A stretch of DNA of 23,535 nt from positions 1-23,535 of the IMG/VR virus record IMGVR_UViG_3300031658_000134. One strand, written 5' to 3'. A model generated the notes under the pieces. That model searched no databases. It was not told where the DNA came from and worked only from the letters and a program-made list of their open reading frames with translations. This document shows positions 85 through 23,535 of this stretch, in pieces (position 1 is the stretch's first letter; each line of letters starts with the position of its first letter). The DNA comes from a virus. Made by a program: the position numbers and the translations under genes.

Positions 85-330
85 TTATTTTGCATTTATT
101 TTTAAATTATTTTCAATTAATTTGTTAAGATACTGTCTTGCTTTAAGTAAATCTTCCATGCCATTTTTGTGTCGCCACCTTGTAACGTACTTAATTATAT
201 TACCTTCAAAAAAATCAAGATTTTGAGAATAAGCATACTCCCACATCTCGATTCCTTTGGTGTAATGTTCTGGATGTTTTACTACATCATTATTAGGCAC
301 TTGGCTGGTCCTTTGGTAAGAATTCTTCAT
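85..330 (-). CDS. DUF3310 (SaV-like) small phage protein
   Basis: An 81-residue protein with the DUF3310 pattern: VKHPEHYTKG near residues 17-26, a central GNIIKYVTRWRHKNG block, then DLLKARQYLNKLIE near the C terminus. The family is common in tailed phages, usually near nucleotide or DNA-processing genes; its biochemical role is not established. As drawn, the frame overlaps the upstream zinc-ribbon gene by 38 nt. A GTG at 300 (Val11) has a good AAAGGA Shine-Dalgarno 8 nt ahead and would cut the overlap to 8 nt. No Shine-Dalgarno precedes the ATG at 330, so 300 may be the true start. All conserved residues lie downstream of either start. Confidence 0.8.
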   Translation of the reverse strand: MKNSYQRTSQVPNNDVVKHPEHYTKGIEMWEYAYSQNLDFFEGNIIKYVTRWRHKNGMEDLLKARQYLNKLIENNLKINAK

Positions 331-547
331 TTATATGCTTGCAATCAGCGCATCTATAAATTTGCATAGGTACAAGCGTCTCTTTACCTGATGGTGACAT
401 TATAGCTGAAAGCTTCTTAAATAAGAAAGCTGGTTCAAAATACTGACTTTCACATTTTTCACACAGCATATCTTCTAAATCATTTGGATTTATATTTAGC
501 TGTTGTTTTTGTTCTTTGTTTTGGTTTAAGTTTATTTCTCTACCCAT
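293..547 (-). CDS. Small zinc-ribbon phage protein
   Basis: This 84-residue protein has two CxxC pairs, C29/C32 (CEKC) and C66/C69 (CADC), spaced as in a zinc ribbon. Between them is the segment FEPAFLFKKLSAIMSPSGK. The first 20 residues are polar and Gln/Asn-rich, probably disordered. Its start codon overlaps the end of the upstream secreted-protein gene by one base, so the two are probably co-translated. Zinc binding is inferred from the cysteine spacing. Similar small proteins occur in large marine phages without an assigned function. Possible roles are a transcription modulator or a replisome accessory, but nothing in the sequence decides. Confidence 0.7.
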   Translation of the reverse strand: MGREINLNQNKEQKQQLNINPNDLEDMLCEKCESQYFEPAFLFKKLSAIMSPSGKETLVPMQIYRCADCKHINEEFLPKDQPSA

Positions 548-1062
548 TATTTTACTCTTATATATTTTTTGTTATTTCTAATGTACATAGTTCCTTTGGG
601 AGCTACTATTAATTCTCTACCCATTACGTCATACATCTTGCTATTATAGCCTTCGTTTTTCATTAGCTCTTCAATGCCAACTGTATTACTCATATTAAAC
701 AATACCCATGTGTAAGTATTCTGATCAAACACTAACGAATCACATCTAGTACATACTTCCATTATACCTGCTTCCCAAATCATAACATCATAACAAACTT
801 TAATAGTGTCTGTTGTTACAATCTGTCCGAAATAAGCATACATTCCTTGTCCAGAATAACACATATTTGAATTACATACTTGCCATAATACCAACATTGA
901 ATCTGCATCATGAACTATACCTGATGTATCAAGTCCTACAGCAAGTCCTTGACTTTGATCTGTCCAATATGATATTGAATCACAACAGAAATAAAGTGTT
1001 GATTGTTGTGCTTGCGTTTGTAGTCCAAGCGAAACTAATAATATTATTAAATACTTTTTCAT
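547..1062 (-). CDS. Secreted protein with putative T9SS C-terminal sorting domain
   Basis: The 171-residue product begins with a signal peptide: MKK, a hydrophobic core at residues 4-14, and a TQA|Q cleavage site after Ala18. The middle (19-125) is Cys-rich, including CCDS, VCNSNMC and VCTRC, which suits disulfides outside the cytoplasm. I do not recognise a family there. The last ~44 residues (GIEEL near 129, KMYDVMGREL at 142-151, APKGTMYIRNNKKYIRVK at the end) match the layout of Bacteroidota type A T9SS sorting domains: a short beta sandwich with a YDxxGRE strand and a final G-x-Y-hydrophobic...Lys strand. Known T9SS cargo passes through Sec, then crosses the outer membrane with removal of this domain. 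I infer that the phage exports this protein to the host surface. It is encoded 1 nt after GroEL. Confidence 0.65.
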   Translation of the reverse strand: MKKYLIILLVSLGLQTQAQQSTLYFCCDSISYWTDQSQGLAVGLDTSGIVHDADSMLVLWQVCNSNMCYSGQGMYAYFGQIVTTDTIKVCYDVMIWEAGIMEVCTRCDSLVFDQNTYTWVLFNMSNTVGIEELMKNEGYNSKMYDVMGRELIVAPKGTMYIRNNKKYIRVK

Positions 1063-1063
1063 A

Positions 1064-2961
<1,898 letters not shown>

Positions 2962-2975
<14 letters not shown>

Positions 2976-7992: not shown

Positions 7993-8499
7993 GAATGTAA
8001 TTGGTGTCGTACCTCTCATTACCGTTGTTTCAAATTCCTTCTGAAACCTATGTAGAGATGTGATGTGGACGTATATCTTTCCAAACTTATATTCTGGCCA
8101 GCAAGTTAGGAGTGCACACATAACCATCATGTATGTCTGGTTGTCATAACAGAAGTTCTTATCAAAGTTTTGACTTCTTACAAAAACATGCATATCTATC
8201 TTGCCATCTCTACATATTGTCTGTATTGTTGATAAACATGCTGCTAGAGTTGGGTCATCTTGATATGACTTGTGGAGTACGCATTGTCTGGAAGTAATTA
8301 TCTTAGATTCACATATACTAAGCATCTCTTCTATGATTTCGTTTCTTTCAACTTCGTCACCTATCAAAGCAGGTGGTATTTTTCTGCTCACAAAGTCTGT
8401 ATCTACTTCAATTTCATAATTGAAATTATAAATTTCTTTATATGTGGAACATTCTTGTTTGTTTAACAGGCTTTGTATTTTCTTTATTAGTTTTTTCAT
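7987..8499 (-). CDS. Short thymidylate synthase/dCMP hydroxymethylase-fold protein
   Basis: The 170-residue protein matches the core of the thymidylate synthase fold. SRQ at 70-72 corresponds to the phosphate-binding Arg region. C88 (LAACLSTIQ) is placed like the catalytic Cys146 of E. coli ThyA. RSQNF starts at R108, exactly 20 residues later as in ThyA (Cys146 to Arg166). SLHRF at 148-152 corresponds to the THLY motif. Asp119 falls where ThyA has Asn177, the residue that reads uracil. dCMP hydroxymethylases such as T4 gp42 carry Asp at this site and use dCMP. I infer a dCMP-directed enzyme, possibly making 5-hydroxymethyl-dCMP. It is much shorter than ThyA (264) or gp42 (246): the N-terminal region bearing Glu58 and Trp80 is abbreviated, so activity is uncertain. 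It overlaps the upstream reductase gene by 62 nt. Confidence 0.65.
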   Translation of the reverse strand: MKKLIKKIQSLLNKQECSTYKEIYNFNYEIEVDTDFVSRKIPPALIGDEVERNEIIEEMLSICESKIITSRQCVLHKSYQDDPTLAACLSTIQTICRDGKIDMHVFVRSQNFDKNFCYDNQTYMMVMCALLTCWPEYKFGKIYVHITSLHRFQKEFETTVMRGTTPITFC

Positions 8500-9502
8500 A
8501 GTGCTTTGCTATTGATAAATATGTTTTTGTTATACCTTCTCTTGAATTCATAGCGTCAGCTGATAAATTATAATGTCGGTACAGTTCGTAAAAGTTTTTA
8601 GATTTTCCATTGTGACGGGCTAGATAGTCACCATCAGCTTTTATATTTATATGCTCTGTTAAATCCTTGCAGCCCGTTACTTCCTCTATGAGATATAAAT
8701 AGTTTTTGAACGCCATTGGTCTATCTTTACTTATAATAAAATCTTTACCCCAGCCATTATCCATAAGCAAAAGCTGTAAAAACATATCTGCAAAGTATTC
8801 GTATCTCATATAATCTTTTTCAATTGCAGGATCAAGTAATACATCAAGTTTGCCATTTTCGTTAAGTGGGGATAATGTATAAGGTATGCTGTTCATACTA
8901 CAATACACCTTTTCTGTTATCTTTCTTATCATAGATGAGTTATCGAATGGTGCGTCTCCGTAAATAAATACAGGCTTAATAACCATCATATTTTCAGAAT
9001 CCATAGTCTGCTTTACTGCGAGTTCTCCTGAGTATTTGGATAGACCATATAGTGTTTTAGGATCTATGGCTGCTGACTCATCAAACTCTCCGTTGTTTTT
9101 CATATACTCATCAGGATCAAATACTGCAGTTGTTGAAAAGTAAATTATCTTGCAGCCTACAGAATTTGCTATGTTGATAAGATTTTGAGTACTTATAATA
9201 TTTGAGTTCACTGCTTCGTATGAAAAGTCATCACATTTGTCTGTGTTGACGTACGCTGCTGTATGTATTATGATGTCATCTTTTGTAAGTCTTTCCATAA
9301 CTTTATCCAAAACTTTTGTATCTGTTACGTCTACTTCTTTTGGTTTTACTAATACACCATTCAGATAGCTAAAGTCGTTTGTGTACTTTGCCAGATCAGA
9401 GTTGTCCATAATCTCAAATCTTTCTTGAGTACTTTCGTCTAATGCTTTTATAATTGATGTGGCTAACATACCACTTTCACCTGTAATAAATAATTTTCTC
9501 AT
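8438..9502 (-). CDS. NAD(P)-dependent sugar-nucleotide reductase, RmlD/extended SDR family
   Basis: A 354-residue Rossmann-fold protein. The dinucleotide motif ITGESGMLA is at 6-14. HTAAYVNTDKCD (80-91) matches the RmlD-type HTAAYT-VDKAE block. The active-site Ser/Thr cluster is FSTTAVFD (122-129), and the catalytic pair is Y152-x3-K156 (YGLSK). RmlD reduces dTDP-4-keto-rhamnose; relatives act on other nucleotide sugars, so the exact substrate is open. It lies among nucleotide-modifying genes, so a role in host surface sugars or in a sugar placed on DNA or protein are both possible. It is longer than typical RmlD (~290-300), with a C-terminal Lys/Asn-rich tail whose coding DNA overlaps the next gene. 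The start lies 8 nt after the kinase stop codon. Confidence 0.85.
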   Translation of the reverse strand: MRKLFITGESGMLATSIIKALDESTQERFEIMDNSDLAKYTNDFSYLNGVLVKPKEVDVTDTKVLDKVMERLTKDDIIIHTAAYVNTDKCDDFSYEAVNSNIISTQNLINIANSVGCKIIYFSTTAVFDPDEYMKNNGEFDESAAIDPKTLYGLSKYSGELAVKQTMDSENMMVIKPVFIYGDAPFDNSSMIRKITEKVYCSMNSIPYTLSPLNENGKLDVLLDPAIEKDYMRYEYFADMFLQLLLMDNGWGKDFIISKDRPMAFKNYLYLIEEVTGCKDLTEHINIKADGDYLARHNGKSKNFYELYRHYNLSADAMNSREGITKTYLSIAKHYEKTNKENTKPVKQTRMFHI

Positions 9503-10701: not shown

Positions 10702-11632
10702 GTTTGTATATTACCTCTATTATGTTTCCGTTAATTGTTTCTATTCCTTCGTTAAGCTTTCTATCAAGCGTTTTTTGATCATACAAATCTAAGTTCTTTC
10801 TTAGATATACCTTGAACCCACTATCATGTAACTTGTTTGCATTCGTTATATCATCGTCTACACAAAATGCTACCTGATTAGGATCAAAGTTATTTATAAT
10901 ATATTTTTCTTTTTCTTCGTCAAATACTATTGCATCATAACATATCCCGTTGTCTTTAAGCCACTTAAGAGTGTCTGAATATATTCTAAAGTATTTTTTA
11001 TAAGGTCTTGCTGTAAGTAAAACAACATTATATTTTTCACATGTTCTGCTCATAAATTCTTTTACACCAATTAGTACATCAAGCTGTGATTTTATTCCAC
11101 AAGTTCTGTATTCAGATTTTATCTTGTACTGCTCTTTTTTTCCTACCTTCTGTTTGAATTCGCTGAGAGATCTATAGCCTGCCCACTTTAAAAAACCACC
11201 TGGCCATTCCGCAAGCACACCGTCTATATCTATAAATGCTATCTGTTTTTCAGATGCCTTTATTTTCTCCATAACCTCTTCCTGGTTAAACTTTGCTTCA
11301 ACTACATTTGATTTATCTATAAACTTTTCGTATAACTCATCTACGCCAAAGCCGTTAAGCTGTATGATTCCAAATAAGTATTTTAATACGTCAACGCATT
11401 CTTCTAATACATTGTCATTTATATCCTCTGTGTTTTTGGAGGTGTGCATTTTCCAGTCTATCTCATCCAGTACTTCATACACCTCTTTAGACAGCGCTAG
11501 AACGTACTCCTTGTTCCACTTTATCTTGAGCTCCTTATCATTACGGACTTCACTTACGGTTAGACCCTGTTTTTTAAAAAACTTTTCCGTGAATGCCTCC
11601 TGTATCTTAAATATTTCTGTTAGCTTATCCAT
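10685..11632 (-). CDS. Fusion of an all-alpha NTP pyrophosphatase and a HAD-type nucleotidase
   Basis: The 315 residues hold two enzymes. Residues ~1-115 are helical and carry the metal-binding pattern of the MazG/dimeric dUTPase class: E50, E53 and E57 in KEVYEVLDEIDWK, then EECVDVLKYLFGI (78-90) with E78/E79 and D81. T4 gp56 dCTPase/dUTPase belongs to this superfamily. Residues ~130-315 are a HAD phosphatase: FIDIDGVLAEWP (nucleophile D135, acid D137), LLTARP (T207) and VDDDITNA (D259, D260). Such HAD proteins include 5'-nucleotidases. I infer stepwise breakdown of a dNTP to dNMP and then nucleoside, or house-cleaning of unwanted dNTPs. It follows the FAD oxidoreductase with an 8-nt overlap and precedes dUTPase. 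The substrate, dCTP or another, is not determined by sequence. Confidence 0.75.
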   Translation of the reverse strand: MDKLTEIFKIQEAFTEKFFKKQGLTVSEVRNDKELKIKWNKEYVLALSKEVYEVLDEIDWKMHTSKNTEDINDNVLEECVDVLKYLFGIIQLNGFGVDELYEKFIDKSNVVEAKFNQEEVMEKIKASEKQIAFIDIDGVLAEWPGGFLKWAGYRSLSEFKQKVGKKEQYKIKSEYRTCGIKSQLDVLIGVKEFMSRTCEKYNVVLLTARPYKKYFRIYSDTLKWLKDNGICYDAIVFDEEKEKYIINNFDPNQVAFCVDDDITNANKLHDSGFKVYLRKNLDLYDQKTLDRKLNEGIETINGNIIEVIYKHENKD

Positions 11633-12575
11633 TATCTTTCCATTCTTTTACTTTGTCTAAAACTTCATTAGCTTTAACCTTGTGGCTCCACTCTGCAAAT
11701 CTACCTAGCATTGTTATGCCGCTTATAGATTCAATATCTTCGCTGTTTGTTATCTGAATAGGTATATCTTCGAACTTCATATCTATTTTGTTTCCCTGTA
11801 TAGAGTCTCCTTCGATTGGAGCTGTTGATTCATATACCATATAATCTCTAAAGTATGTACACCTTGTCCAGTCTGCTTCTATAGAATATATGTAATCATA
11901 AAAAGTAGAAGGGTGGCCATTTTTCATAGCATCGTCAACTGAAAAACCATATTCGCATTTGTAAAAGCTTTTTCTAGATGTTGACAGATCAAACTTCCAT
12001 TTCTCGCACTCGCTTTCAACTTGAGGACATACTTCTTTTAATATATTAAGATTTAGTGTGTTAACTATATTACCATAAGCAGATGATTTACCGTCAGTAA
12101 ACTCGATTCTCATAATCTCTGTATCTATAGATTTTACAGAGGTTCTTATAAGCTGGTCTCTACCTTCTATTATTTCAAGAAGTTTTTTAAACAACTCCTT
12201 GTAACTATCTTCTCCATAATCTCCGAATTCAACGTGAGTAATCTCCGTCTTGCCTTCTGAAAGATGGCTTCCTTCGCTGGACTTGCCTCTTGTTCTGAGA
12301 CTATACTTTTTCCTGAATTCATCATCAGGAGTGTCATAGACACCATCTTTATCATGATATCCTATTACTGCATGTTCTATCTTTATTTCTAAATCTGGGA
12401 ATATTTCTTTTGCAAACCATTTCATTTGAGATGTAGCCTGCAGTAATCTAGGGCCTGGTATAAATGGCATATTCAATTGACCTAAAGGGTTTTCATCTAT
12501 TACTTTGTAGTCTTTATTATAATATGCTGCAATAAGTCCTGCAGGTCCTGCGCCTAATATGTAGTTCTGTTTCAT
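11625..12575 (-). CDS. FAD-dependent oxidoreductase, amine-oxidase/UDP-galactopyranose-mutase-like
   Basis: A 316-residue flavoprotein. YILGAGPAGLIAAYY (5-19) is the dinucleotide-binding motif. The near-C-terminal ITMLGRFAEWSHKVKANEVLDKV matches the second FAD contact of the amine oxidase/protoporphyrinogen oxidase/UDP-galactopyranose mutase group, where Gly-Arg is followed by an aromatic helix. It is shorter than most of these enzymes (~360-450), so the substrate domain is reduced. It is the first gene after a promoter-like element and follows the ribonucleotide reductase, leading into nucleotide genes. Possible roles are sugar-nucleotide chemistry, given the RmlD-like gene nearby, or redox partnering with a nucleotide enzyme. 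No substrate can be deduced. Confidence 0.7.
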   Translation of the reverse strand: MKQNYILGAGPAGLIAAYYNKDYKVIDENPLGQLNMPFIPGPRLLQATSQMKWFAKEIFPDLEIKIEHAVIGYHDKDGVYDTPDDEFRKKYSLRTRGKSSEGSHLSEGKTEITHVEFGDYGEDSYKELFKKLLEIIEGRDQLIRTSVKSIDTEIMRIEFTDGKSSAYGNIVNTLNLNILKEVCPQVESECEKWKFDLSTSRKSFYKCEYGFSVDDAMKNGHPSTFYDYIYSIEADWTRCTYFRDYMVYESTAPIEGDSIQGNKIDMKFEDIPIQITNSEDIESISGITMLGRFAEWSHKVKANEVLDKVKEWKDNG

Positions 12576-19925: not shown

Positions 19926-19958
19926 GTTAATATAACAAAAATAATTTACATTATAAAA
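19926..19958 (-). promoter_or_regulatory. Recurrent promoter-like element, copy 6 (SSB-recA operon)
   Basis: On the minus strand: TTTTATAATGTAAATTATTTTT, GTTATATTAAC. The TATATT core at 19934-19929 lies 32 nt before the SSB ATG. The TCGGAAA block is replaced by TAAAT, so this copy is weaker than those at 4519 and 21393. Confidence 0.45.
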
Positions 19959-20967
19959 CTTTTTGTAAGTTATTTTTGTATTTTTTTAAGTAGCCTTGTA
20001 CTGCTAGCTCTTTATGTTTTGCTTCTACAACAACATCGATGTCAAGTCCATAGTCATGAATCTTGTCTACTATAAGATCTGAATGAGCTTGAACTCTTAT
20101 CTTGCTTACGTCATGATGCAGCTTATGTATTGTGGGAAAGTCTGATAGTGTACTTTCAGTTATTTTATTTTTTGCCATTATGTCCTCTATAATTAGAGCA
20201 TGCTCTCGTCTGCGGGATTCTGAATAGTGAGTGCAGGGCTTTACATCACCCCATGTTGATGCTGCAAGTTTTAGTGCCTCCTCTTCTGTTTGACCTCCAG
20301 TACAGAATTGGTGATGGTGATAATCAAAAACAATAGGTATACCTACACGTCTATACACACCTTCGTATAAATCTCTGACAGAATACATGCTAGCTTTATC
20401 GTCGTTTTCAACTGTTAATCTTGATTTTGCAGAGTCCGATAGTTTTTCAAAGTTATTGCAAAATCTAACAAGTGCAGTCTCCTTGTTTCCATAGGCTCCA
20501 CCAACATGTATATTTATTTTTGCCATGCGTGATCTTGGCAAACCCATAAGATCCATTATCTGTCCGGACTTATTTAATTCGTTCCATGCGCCATCAACAA
20601 CTTTTTGAGTAGGAGATGCAAGCACTGTAAACTGCCCGGGGTGGAATGAAAGACGCTGGCCGTAGCCTTGTGCGAGATCACCTGCTTTTTTTAATAGCGC
20701 TGATAGTTCTTTATAATCTGGTAAGTCTTTAAATTCGTATTCAGACATCCAAGGGTATATTTCGCTAGACATACGAAATACTTTTATTCCATTGTCTTCG
20801 TTCCATTGAATAATCTTTATAAGATCTTTTGTATTTTCTATACACAGCTCTGATACATAGTCTAAACCTTTTGCATCAAATGTGCGTCTGATCATAGACC
20901 TTCCTGTGTATATACCTTGTTTTCTTAAGTGCATGTTTATACATGCGTATCCTAGTTGTTTTGCCAT
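19951..20967 (-). CDS. uvsE: UV damage endonuclease (UvdE/UVDE)
   Basis: A 338-residue member of the UVDE family, which nicks DNA 5' to UV photoproducts and some other lesions, starting an alternative excision repair path independent of UvrABC. The TIM-barrel start LGYACINM is at 5-12. Metal-site motifs are visible in order: MSSEIYPW, LSFHPGQF, INIHVGGAYGNKE, LTVENDDK and FDYHHHQFC. Length matches bacterial UVDE (~300-340). The enzyme protects DNA from sunlight damage, which fits a phage of surface waters. It stands alone: the membrane-protein gene ends 31 nt before it and SSB has its own upstream element. A TATATT core lies only 8 nt before the ATG with no Shine-Dalgarno, so the message may be leaderless. 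Confidence 0.95.
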   Translation of the reverse strand: MAKQLGYACINMHLRKQGIYTGRSMIRRTFDAKGLDYVSELCIENTKDLIKIIQWNEDNGIKVFRMSSEIYPWMSEYEFKDLPDYKELSALLKKAGDLAQGYGQRLSFHPGQFTVLASPTQKVVDGAWNELNKSGQIMDLMGLPRSRMAKINIHVGGAYGNKETALVRFCNNFEKLSDSAKSRLTVENDDKASMYSVRDLYEGVYRRVGIPIVFDYHHHQFCTGGQTEEEALKLAASTWGDVKPCTHYSESRRREHALIIEDIMAKNKITESTLSDFPTIHKLHHDVSKIRVQAHSDLIVDKIHDYGLDIDVVVEAKHKELAVQGYLKKYKNNLQKVL

Positions 20968-21456: not shown

Positions 21457-21858
21457 CTATCGTTTTACTTTAATGTAAATCACTTCTTTTACTGTAGTAT
21501 CTATTCTTTGTAAACCTTCATCACTTGTCACTAATATAGAATTTCTATAGTTATCCCACTCTAACTGAAAATGGTTATCTAGTACTCCATTGTTACACAA
21601 TTTAATACATTCATTCAATGCGTTAATAGTATACAAAGTATTTGTTTGTTTTTTCCTATGCAGTGATATTGTATCTGATATAATTTCTACTCGCTGTGAT
21701 GAGTCTATATTATATGTACACATCAACTCTGATTTGTTTTGTTCGTTGTTTAATATAAACAGCTTGTTATATAGAATATCATATGTATCTATAATTTTAT
21801 CTACAGTTTTTGTAAGGAACTTTGTCTTTGTAAATGTGCACAGTAATTGAGTTCTCAT
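21457..21858 (-). CDS. Conserved-looking hypothetical protein
   Basis: A 133-residue protein beginning MRTQLLCTFTKTKFLTKTVDKIIDTYDI. Alternating strands and helices with charged and hydrophobic residues suggest a compact alpha/beta fold. NKLFILNNEQNKSELMCTYNI (32-52) and VTSDEGLQRIDTTVKEVIYIKV near the end look like well-formed strands. I believe similar proteins occur in large marine tailed phages, but I cannot name a function. No signal peptide or membrane helix is present. The start ATG overlaps the end of the upstream large gene by one base, so the two are translationally coupled. Confidence 0.7.
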   Translation of the reverse strand: MRTQLLCTFTKTKFLTKTVDKIIDTYDILYNKLFILNNEQNKSELMCTYNIDSSQRVEIISDTISLHRKKQTNTLYTINALNECIKLCNNGVLDNHFQLEWDNYRNSILVTSDEGLQRIDTTVKEVIYIKVKR

Positions 21859-23535
21859 TATATCTTTCCTAACACTGATGTTCCAGAGTCAAACCCTGTA
21901 CCTGATACTGAAAATGCCAATGTATATGGTTTACCTGATCTTAAATCGACTTTAGTATACTTTGTGCCTTTAGATGTAATTGAATGTAGTATCCAAACTT
22001 TGACTGATGTGTGGCCTTTTCCTTTCTGAGGTGATGATTCTACAACAACACCTGGAACGTATTTTCCACCTTTTACAGCATCTTTCATATCCATAGCATT
22101 AAGTCTGTCTTCTTTATACTCTTTCCCGCTTTTAAGATATGACCAAGCTGTTCCTTTCATACCTTCTGTACCATATACTTTAAACATTGGTAAATCTGTT
22201 TTTCCAAAATACATTTCTTTTTCTAAATCTACAAATTCTTCTAGTATTTTTGATACTTCTTTTATAGTTCCTTTTGAATTTGACAGCATTGCATTTAAAT
22301 GTTCATATGCCATGTAGTTTACCATTAACTTAACAGTCAATTCCACTCCGTGATTAAGTGATGATATTTTTGGTACTTGTGGCCCTGCAGAAATTTTAGT
22401 CATGTCTATTCCATCATCAGGTGGAGATGTTAATCCTTTCAATATTTTGAATTGTGCGGTTGCTTCAGCTGCTAAGCTGTTTATTTCTTTAGTGTCACCT
22501 TGTAATGCTAGCTTTCCAACCACAGCAGCATATTCACTATAACTATATCTTGGCTTTTTGGCTTCATCAAGTCGTTTCACTGCGCTGTTGAATCTCTTCT
22601 TCATAAAGCTATCTAAGCTTGGTGATGGCTTGTCTGTCTTTGTTTTAAGTGCTGACATTATAGAACTACCAAATGATGAAATTTTGGTATTGATCTTGTT
22701 CATTGCTGCTGTGAATGTATCTTTGATCCACTTGAGGCCTTGATTAAAATATTGTGCTAGACCTTCATTTAATAAAAATTCTTTATCGGCGTGCTCCTGA
22801 GATTCTTTTGTTAAACGAATTCTCCATGTGTCCATCGGGCTTGATAGACCATACATGTCTGAAAATGCTTGCTGTATTCTACCTAGCTGTGCCCCGCCTT
22901 CTTTTGCCTTGTTACTTACTTGATAGAATTCTATGCCTGATTCTGTTTTGCACTTACCTTTCCCATCAAATGTAACTTTCTCAGTTTCAATTTGTGAAAT
23001 TAAAGCTGCTGGTGAGCCGTTAAGAATTATAGTGTCGGCTGTGTTATCTTTAAACCCAGTGCTGTCTAAGTTGCTGTTTTTATATCCGGCTTTATAATAC
23101 TTTTGTATGCTGCTATGTATGAAATTCCAGTTTTTATCGATGCCGTGTGATTGTGCAAATTTATATACGCCATTGGCAATTTCCAAAGCTTTTATTAAAT
23201 CGGGTATGCCTTCTATCGCTAACAGTGCAGATTTCCCACCGTACTCACTCCCTTTATTTAAAGCCGCTTTGAAAGCACTAATTGCAGAGTCAACGTCTGA
23301 CTGTTCTGCTTTACCACTCATTATCTTGTTATAGTAAGGATTCGGATCAAAGTATAGGCCTGTACAAGCAGCTGATTCGAATGTAGCATCTCCCCATTTT
23401 ATCTTGAATGGTGATTTTTTGCTTGATGCGTTTTTAAACAGCTTTGACATTTTGTTCATAGAGCCATAAATTTTATATACTGTACTTCCTGCTTTAATAT
23501 ATGCGGTTTTTATGTCTTTAGTACCACCTATATCT
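21858..23535 (-). CDS. Large phage protein of unknown function, 5' end outside the window
   Basis: A 533-residue stretch follows an ATG at 23459, but the same frame stays open through the right edge (upstream codons read DIGGTKDIKTAYIKAGSTVY and on). The real start is therefore probably outside the window and the protein longer. Two regions stand out. KIKWGDATFESAAC near residue 18 is an ordered start after a Lys-rich stretch. NTADTIILNGSP (about 144-155), followed ~25-45 residues later by GIEFYQVSNKAKEGGAQLGRI, recalls the Asp...(E/Q)xK spacing of PD-(D/E)XK nuclease-like folds; I hold this loosely because the catalytic Glu is not clear. The centre is helical (MSALKTKTDKPSPSLDSFMKKRF), and the C terminus is beta-rich and Gly-rich. 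It could be a virion or DNA-associated protein. Confidence 0.6.
   Translation of the reverse strand, partial: DIGGTKDIKTAYIKAGSTVYKIYGSMNKMSKLFKNASSKKSPFKIKWGDATFESAACTGLYFDPNPYYNKIMSGKAEQSDVDSAISAFKAALNKGSEYGGKSALLAIEGIPDLIKALEIANGVYKFAQSHGIDKNWNFIHSSIQKYYKAGYKNSNLDSTGFKDNTADTIILNGSPAALISQIETEKVTFDGKGKCKTESGIEFYQVSNKAKEGGAQLGRIQQAFSDMYGLSSPMDTWRIRLTKESQEHADKEFLLNEGLAQYFNQGLKWIKDTFTAAMNKINTKISSFGSSIMSALKTKTDKPSPSLDSFMKKRFNSAVKRLDEAKKPRYSYSEYAAVVGKLALQGDTKEINSLAAEATAQFKILKGLTSPPDDGIDMTKISAGPQVPKISSLNHGVELTVKLMVNYMAYEHLNAMLSNSKGTIKEVSKILEEFVDLEKEMYFGKTDLPMFKVYGTEGMKGTAWSYLKSGKEYKEDRLNAMDMKDAVKGGKYVPGVVVESSPQKGKGHTSVKVWILHSITSKGTKYTKVDLRSGKPYTLAFSVSGTGFDSGTSVLGKI

Follow-up and report, generated by a model that had tools for sequence, protein, structure and literature searches.

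Phage proteins with a short C-terminal tail, likely cargo of the host type IX secretion system

The gene at positions 547..1062 (minus strand) of the virus record IMGVR_UViG_3300031658_000134, which was analysed over its whole length of 23,535 bases (hereafter the window), encodes a protein of 171 aa that is likely a phage-made cargo for the type IX secretion system (T9SS) of its host. A T9SS in the host, secretion of the protein and its cleavage are inferred. The first-pass annotation, which was made without database searches, had called the product a phage protein with a Bacteroidota T9SS sorting signal. This claim is supported by another route, namely as a short C-terminal domain (CTD), and the support comes from homology to cellular tails, the occurrence of the tail on unrelated secreted bodies, canonical CTDs in sister phages and signal peptides that follow the Q-rule. 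The short signal is found on dozens of phage contigs with differing cargos, beside canonical type A and type B-like signals, and the question whether Bacteroidota phages use the outer-membrane secretion machine of the host to alter the surface of the infected cell becomes testable.

The gene and its genomic surroundings

The ORF at 547..1062 holds as previously annotated, except that its location on the minus strand had been left unstated. It is a real gene: dozens of IMG/VR contigs carry homologues, and its dN/dS of about 0.2 (Nei-Gojobori, in comparison with loci L002 and L003) indicates purifying selection. A protein scan of IMG/VR yielded 14 relatives of 49-100% identity, and a scan with the alignment of relatives yielded 57 loci. 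Residues A18 and Q19, the cysteines C27, C63, C68 and C104, and Y144, D145, G148, G157, Y160 and I161 in the tail are invariant or nearly so in the family. Among isolated phages (INPHARED) no real match was found to the 171-aa protein or to its tail; tail matches with E 3-10 in Campylobacter, E. coli and Enterococcus phages were rejected as noise.

The gene order is groES (2697..2975; PHROG 3188, E 1.8e-19), groEL (1064..2695; PHROG 5725, E 1.7e-160), the 171-aa gene, the gene of an 84-aa CxxC..CxxC protein (293..547) and that of an 81-aa phage 'nucleotide kinase'-linked domain protein (85..330; PHROG 236, E 8e-25), all co-linear on the minus strand. The 171-aa ORF begins 1 base past the groEL stop, and its own stop overlaps the ATG of the 84-aa gene, which is kept in L001, L002, L005 and L010. 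The claim of a gene directly after groEL in an apparent operon holds for the position, with a 1-base gap and the same strand. This arrangement is confined to the clade of the window (L001, L002, L005, L010), whereas the gene follows recA in L009, L023, L024, L043, L051, L053, L056, L057, L073, L091 and others, and lies upstream of a groEL in L044, L045, L060 and L064. We therefore dropped the groEL linkage as a functional clue, given that homologues elsewhere follow recA or other genes; the gene acts like a mobile accessory gene and not like a fixed part of a chaperonin operon.

The virus record further encodes a DnaE-type polymerase, DnaB helicase, UvsX/RecA, ribonucleotide reductase, dUTPase and single-strand binding protein. 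As to the host, the neighbouring genes point in no single direction: RecA is nearest to that of a Microcystis phage (52%), and GroEL is about equally near to bacterial and Flavobacterium-phage GroEL. Several other genes of the window deserve mention in their own right. A probable UV damage endonuclease (UvdE-like, named by eye from the sequence; 19951-20967) adjoins the genes of the ssDNA-binding protein and RecA, and this order is retained in many relatives. A nucleotide-sugar epimerase/reductase-like protein (8438-9502; PHROG 540) and a FAD-binding oxidoreductase-like protein (11625-12575; likewise named by eye) possibly modify surface sugars or DNA. A 533-aa protein (21858-23459) lacks a convincing match in PHROG, and its relatives are found in several IMG/VR loci but in no isolated phage.

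The N-terminal export signal

The N-terminus (residues 1-18; 1009..1062, minus strand) reads as a Sec-type signal peptide, MKKYLIILLVSLGLQTQA followed by Q, with predicted cleavage at A18/Q19. It satisfies the Bacteroidetes Q-rule, by which signal peptidase I exposes a Gln located right after the cleavage site (mean Q-value 71% across the Bacteroidetes species examined; PMC5837995); the cleavage itself was not measured. Both A18 and Q19 are invariant across 40 homologues, and the signal peptides of the family end in ..QA/Q or similar. The Q-rule is also met by unrelated tail-bearing bodies (..ASSQ, ..ADAQ, ..LTAQ), and among the 64 tail proteins whose start is complete, 62 have a Q-rule-like site, the remaining two being probably mis-started. 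The previously claimed Sec signal peptide and Cys-rich body both hold, the former as read from the sequence and with a Q-rule site, the latter with 7 Cys.

In one relative (L003:6519-7711) the same signal peptide of 20 residues, MKKILLTLVLGLGLLTADAQ, is encoded by two adjacent genes, one for a TlpA-like putative T9SS cargo and the other for a probable outer-membrane protein of 184 aa; this looks like a recent swap of a signal peptide module. A 64% identical relative of the 184-aa protein adjoins the same family in L012.

The tail and the curated T9SS models

The C-terminal 43 residues (129-171; 550..678, minus strand), GIEELMKNEGYNSKMYDVMGRELIVAPKGTMYIRNNKKYIRVK, likely represent the short-CTD class of T9SS signal, although there are no data on cleavage or secretion. 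The first-pass annotation had recognised a type A layout in the last ~44 residues. This holds in part: the motifs are real, within 43 residues, and the match to curated type A and B models failed. TIGR04183, TIGR04131 and Pfam gave no T9SS match at E<=10 for the 171-aa protein or for 13 aligned relatives, and a TIGR04183 domain is absent from the whole window; weak matches to ComS, quinone_pig3 and similar models were dismissed as signal-peptide or chance matches. The features of type A (about 72 positions, a PNP start) are not met by a tail of 43 residues without PNP, and the 171-aa protein does not reach the cut-off of type B (TIGR04131/CHU_C). Likewise, the profile of the phage tails is only weakly and locally similar to the long CTDs of bacterial genomes (hhalign P 2.5e-4, probability 43%). 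The absence of any T9SS profile match had been named beforehand as grounds for refutation, and for the curated models these grounds are formally given. We do not consider them decisive, because a test by curated models is blind to short CTDs, and we interpret the failure of TIGR04183 and TIGR04131 as a consequence of the tail belonging to this class.

Short CTDs are known from Prevotella intermedia, whose 80 cargos comprise 48 with short (43-55 aa) and 32 with long CTDs (Ye et al. 2025, PMC11969387) and which is called the only species reported to have both. For the short CTDs of this species, cleavage and glycosylation were demonstrated experimentally. Their consensus displays PT/GI at the cut with a strongly conserved Ile at +2, a motif B that combines Tyr with an invariant Gly and a basic residue right after it, a motif D of GxY followed by Ile, and a motif E in which one basic residue is invariant; the predicted structure is one three-stranded sheet after a coiled linker (all PMC11969387).

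These elements were compared in 66 distinct phage tails. The length of 43 residues in the 171-aa protein, which is also the mode of the family (range 37-51), falls within the 43-55 residues of short CTDs. At the putative cut the 171-aa protein has TV/GI; I, V or L is found at +2 in 65 of the 66 tails, among which PT/NI, PT/GI, PT/AI and PT/SI are frequent. Motif B is met by Y144-D-V-M-G148-R149 (Gly and basic residue in 66/66) and motif D by G157-T-M-Y-I, in which G and Y are separated by one residue more than in the consensus (G-x(1,2)-Y-[IF] in 64/66). Motif E corresponds to the basic residues in the C-terminal NNKKYIRVK, including K165 and K171, and a basic residue follows Y-I in all 66. 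The AlphaFold (AF2) model of the 171-aa protein, which was made from 40 aligned sequences, predicts a disordered linker (125-139) and three strands (143-145, 159-162, 165-168; pLDDT 83-90). A scan with the tail alone found 59 loci in viral contigs, with the tail motif lying 25-31 residues from the C-terminus without exception.

Cellular counterparts of the tail

The phage tails are closely related to short tails of cellular proteins (hhalign profile-profile P 6e-24, 41 columns, 44% identity). A scan of bacterial genomes revealed 22 loci with the tail. Most of these encode secreted proteins from Prevotella, Paludibacteraceae and Flavobacteriales, including a C10 peptidase and a GH53 enzyme. All 22 are Bacteroidota, save one Pelagibacter-binned record that resembles a phage contig. 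The same motif is carried at the C-terminus of an arabinanase of known structure (PDB 4kca; E 3.4e-5).

A phylum-wide search found the short cellular tail in 1 of 247 genomes only, which was that of the query itself. The short tail is not general in the phylum, and we therefore tested its association with SprA at the family level. In the family around a Prevotella isolate (121 genomes), 76 genomes possess both, two the tail only, nine SprA only and 34 neither (Fisher P 2e-19, a value that ignores shared ancestry). One of the two tail-only genomes, G325, encodes 40 short tails without any match to SprA, and is perhaps an incomplete assembly. SprA is likewise present in 18 of the 20 genomes that were brought in by the short-tail scan.

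In the family around the genome G312, short T9SS-like tails number up to 54 per genome. The short-tail proteins that were run against TIGR04183 were missed by it, and standard annotation therefore probably undercounts the T9SS cargo of this family. An entire class of cargo escapes the curated T9SS models, in phages as well as in Prevotella.

We also have to consider that the likeness of the tail to T9SS signals is a coincidence or a convergent beta-hairpin. The tail is short, and the scores of single-sequence HMM comparisons with long CTDs are marginal, both of which speak for this explanation. However, the profile-profile similarity to cellular short tails, the joint presence of all four short-CTD elements in nearly all members and the near-confinement of the bacterial tails to Bacteroidota all but exclude it.

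Bodies that carry the tail

The mature body of the 171-aa protein (residues 19-128; 679..1008, minus strand) is predicted to be a single all-beta Ig/FN3/PKD-like domain with pLDDT of about 84-95 over residues 31-120 (AF2). A fold search returned only generic Ig/FN3/PKD beta-sandwich matches (Z about 8), none of which clearly exceeded the others, so that no function can be read from the fold. The sole strong viral match to the body is A0A218ML00, an uncharacterised protein of an uncultured virus.

The same tail occurs in phages on several unrelated bodies. Most members have the Cys-rich Ig-like body; others are Omp28-type proteins of 590-618 aa (L019, L020, L205 and also L103), TlpA/ResA-like thioredoxins (L003:6519-7157, L203) or thioredoxin-like proteins of 430 aa (L012:4347-5651, L206). 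In L003, L012, L019 and L020 a thioredoxin-fold protein directly adjoins the homologue of the studied gene.

Two records under cellular labels contain elements of the phage type. The Omp28-type protein with a phage short tail in L103 (CAJQJC010000069.1) is binned as Candidatus Pelagibacter and probably lies on a mis-binned phage contig. A MAG labelled Chryseobacterium gleum (L102:4293-5135) encodes a 280-aa protein composed of an N-terminal domain like that of L107, the phage Cys-rich body and a short tail, the latter 77% identical.

Alternatively, the 171-aa protein could be a virion or tail-associated Ig-like protein, in which the hydrophobic N-terminus and the C-terminal beta strands serve assembly. 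Generic sandwiches such as the predicted body are common on phage virions, and a weak baseplate-like gene (E 0.0025) is located a few genes upstream in L003. This explanation is nevertheless very unlikely in view of the invariant signal peptide with its A-Q cleavage site, the movement of the gene among groEL, recA and other neighbourhoods without a tie to structural genes, and the presence of the same tail on secreted bacterial enzymes.

Canonical T9SS signals in related phages

TIGR04183 domains above the curated cut-off are found in 10 of the 49 tail-bearing virus records (best match of each E 8e-18 to 4e-12), mostly on proteins of 1,057-1,399 aa that consist of GCTDxxAxNYNPLANTDNGSC repeats. 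G007, the record to which the 79%-identical relative L003 belongs, encodes two short-tail proteins, one giant protein that carries PF18962/TIGR04183, and a protein of 193 aa that has CHU_C, a type B-like signal. We infer from the canonical CTDs of these sister phages the strongest indication that the host cells possess a T9SS. In a search of phage records, the isolated Flavobacterium phage vB_FspM_immuto_3-5A (MW353176), which has groES-groEL, was found to encode a protein (gp15) with a signal peptide, a cohesin-like domain (PF00963) and a canonical CTD (E 5.9e-12), and four other phage records in the same search had no canonical CTD. Giant GCTD-repeat proteins that end in a canonical type A CTD recur in several tail-bearing phages (L207:199-4395 in G007, L155-L163).

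A further rival to T9SS secretion holds that the protein is exported by Sec and goes no further than the periplasm or the inner side of the outer membrane, with the tail a vestige that came with a copied host gene and is not used by the T9SS. Some other phages are known to block superinfection by proteins of their own in the periplasm. The tail is not recognised by curated T9SS models, and phages of Porphyromonas gingivalis were noted to have Q-rule signal peptides, without a T9SS signal being reported (PMC10367356). On the other hand, the tail is under purifying selection and better conserved than the body in the comparison with L010 (dN 0.14 versus 0.50). Its position at the extreme C-terminus of several unrelated bodies is not expected for a vestige, and sister phages have canonical CTDs. 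We consequently regard this rival as unlikely and retain the interpretation of the protein as T9SS cargo.

Proposed mechanism and role

Under the cargo interpretation, the protein would be expressed from the groES-groEL operon and exported by Sec, and signal peptidase I would cut after A18 and expose Q19, which would be cyclised to pyroglutamate. The Ig-like body would fold with disulfides in the periplasm. The 43-residue short CTD would then dock on PorV, and the protein would cross the SprA translocon. The PorU sortase would cut at about V128/G129, and a Cys-rich domain of 110 residues would stay attached to the lipopolysaccharide of the surface or be released. Several observations count against the cargo reading: there is no match to a curated model, the comparison with long CTDs is weak, motif D is mostly G-x-x-Y, the gene is absent from the isolated phages of INPHARED, the neighbouring RecA is closest to that of a Microcystis phage, and G325 combines many short tails with no SprA match. 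In addition, short CTDs are proven only in Prevotella intermedia, and not in a marine host.

Delivery to the surface or outside, a block of superinfection, a change of the surface and action on neighbours, all suggested in the first-pass annotation, are not shown; secretion and roles are inferred. A changed surface of the infected cell, e.g., by receptor masking or superinfection exclusion, is our guess at the role, and we consider it less likely than not. Adhesion or aggregation of infected cells is a possible alternative, as is redox protection, which we consider because thioredoxin-fold cargos adjoin the gene. In a bolder reading, which may as well prove wrong as right, Bacteroidota phages run a dedicated programme of surface remodelling during infection. 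A short T9SS tag, exchangeable between proteins and overlooked in standard annotation, would be placed on several types of cargo (Cys-rich Ig-like proteins; Omp28, TlpA and thioredoxin redox proteins) and used beside the giant GCTD-repeat proteins with long CTDs, and the infected cell would be coated with proteins of the phage's choice.

Comparison with known systems

The closest likeness is to the short CTDs of P. intermedia (PMC11969387). The phage tail shares with these the 43 residues from the predicted cut, a PT/GI-like site with Ile at +2, the Y..G[RK] of motif B, a motif D ending in Y-I and a basic motif E, as well as a flexible linker that leads into a predicted three-strand sheet, and the consistently C-terminal position on proteins with signal peptides. 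It differs by being encoded in phages, which are known from metagenomes, and by a motif D that is mostly G-x-x-Y in contrast to G-x-Y. With the long type A CTD (TIGR04183/PF18962) it has in common YD..G[RK] and G..Y..K in the same order and at the C-terminus, and the two co-occur in the 10 of 49 records mentioned above; unlike the long CTD, the phage tail is devoid of the PNP start and of about 30 residues.

The phage immuto parallels the window in having groES-groEL and a protein with signal peptide and T9SS CTD. Its gp15 differs from the 171-aa protein in the cohesin-like body and the long CTD; the bodies are not homologous, and gp15 is not located beside groEL. Among bacterial proteins, HBP35 of Porphyromonas gingivalis is a T9SS-secreted protein of thioredoxin type, in which the last 22 residues of the CTD suffice (PMC11285876, PMC5445135). 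It parallels the thioredoxin-fold cargos of L003, L012, L203 and L206, but is bacterial and has a CTD of medium length, whereas the protein of the window has no thioredoxin domain.

Cryophage likewise encodes proteins with T9SS CTDs in a Bacteroidota phage, for which superinfection exclusion was also proposed and which was called a unique occurrence (PMC7468147, 2020). There, type A CTDs are found on enzymes and a PA14 protein of a single phage, while here a short-CTD family extends across dozens of phage contigs and other bodies. As far as the open-licence PMC literature that we searched is concerned, and without excluding earlier reports elsewhere, phage-encoded T9SS cargo was known before from Cryophage, and the widespread family of short-CTD cargo is new.
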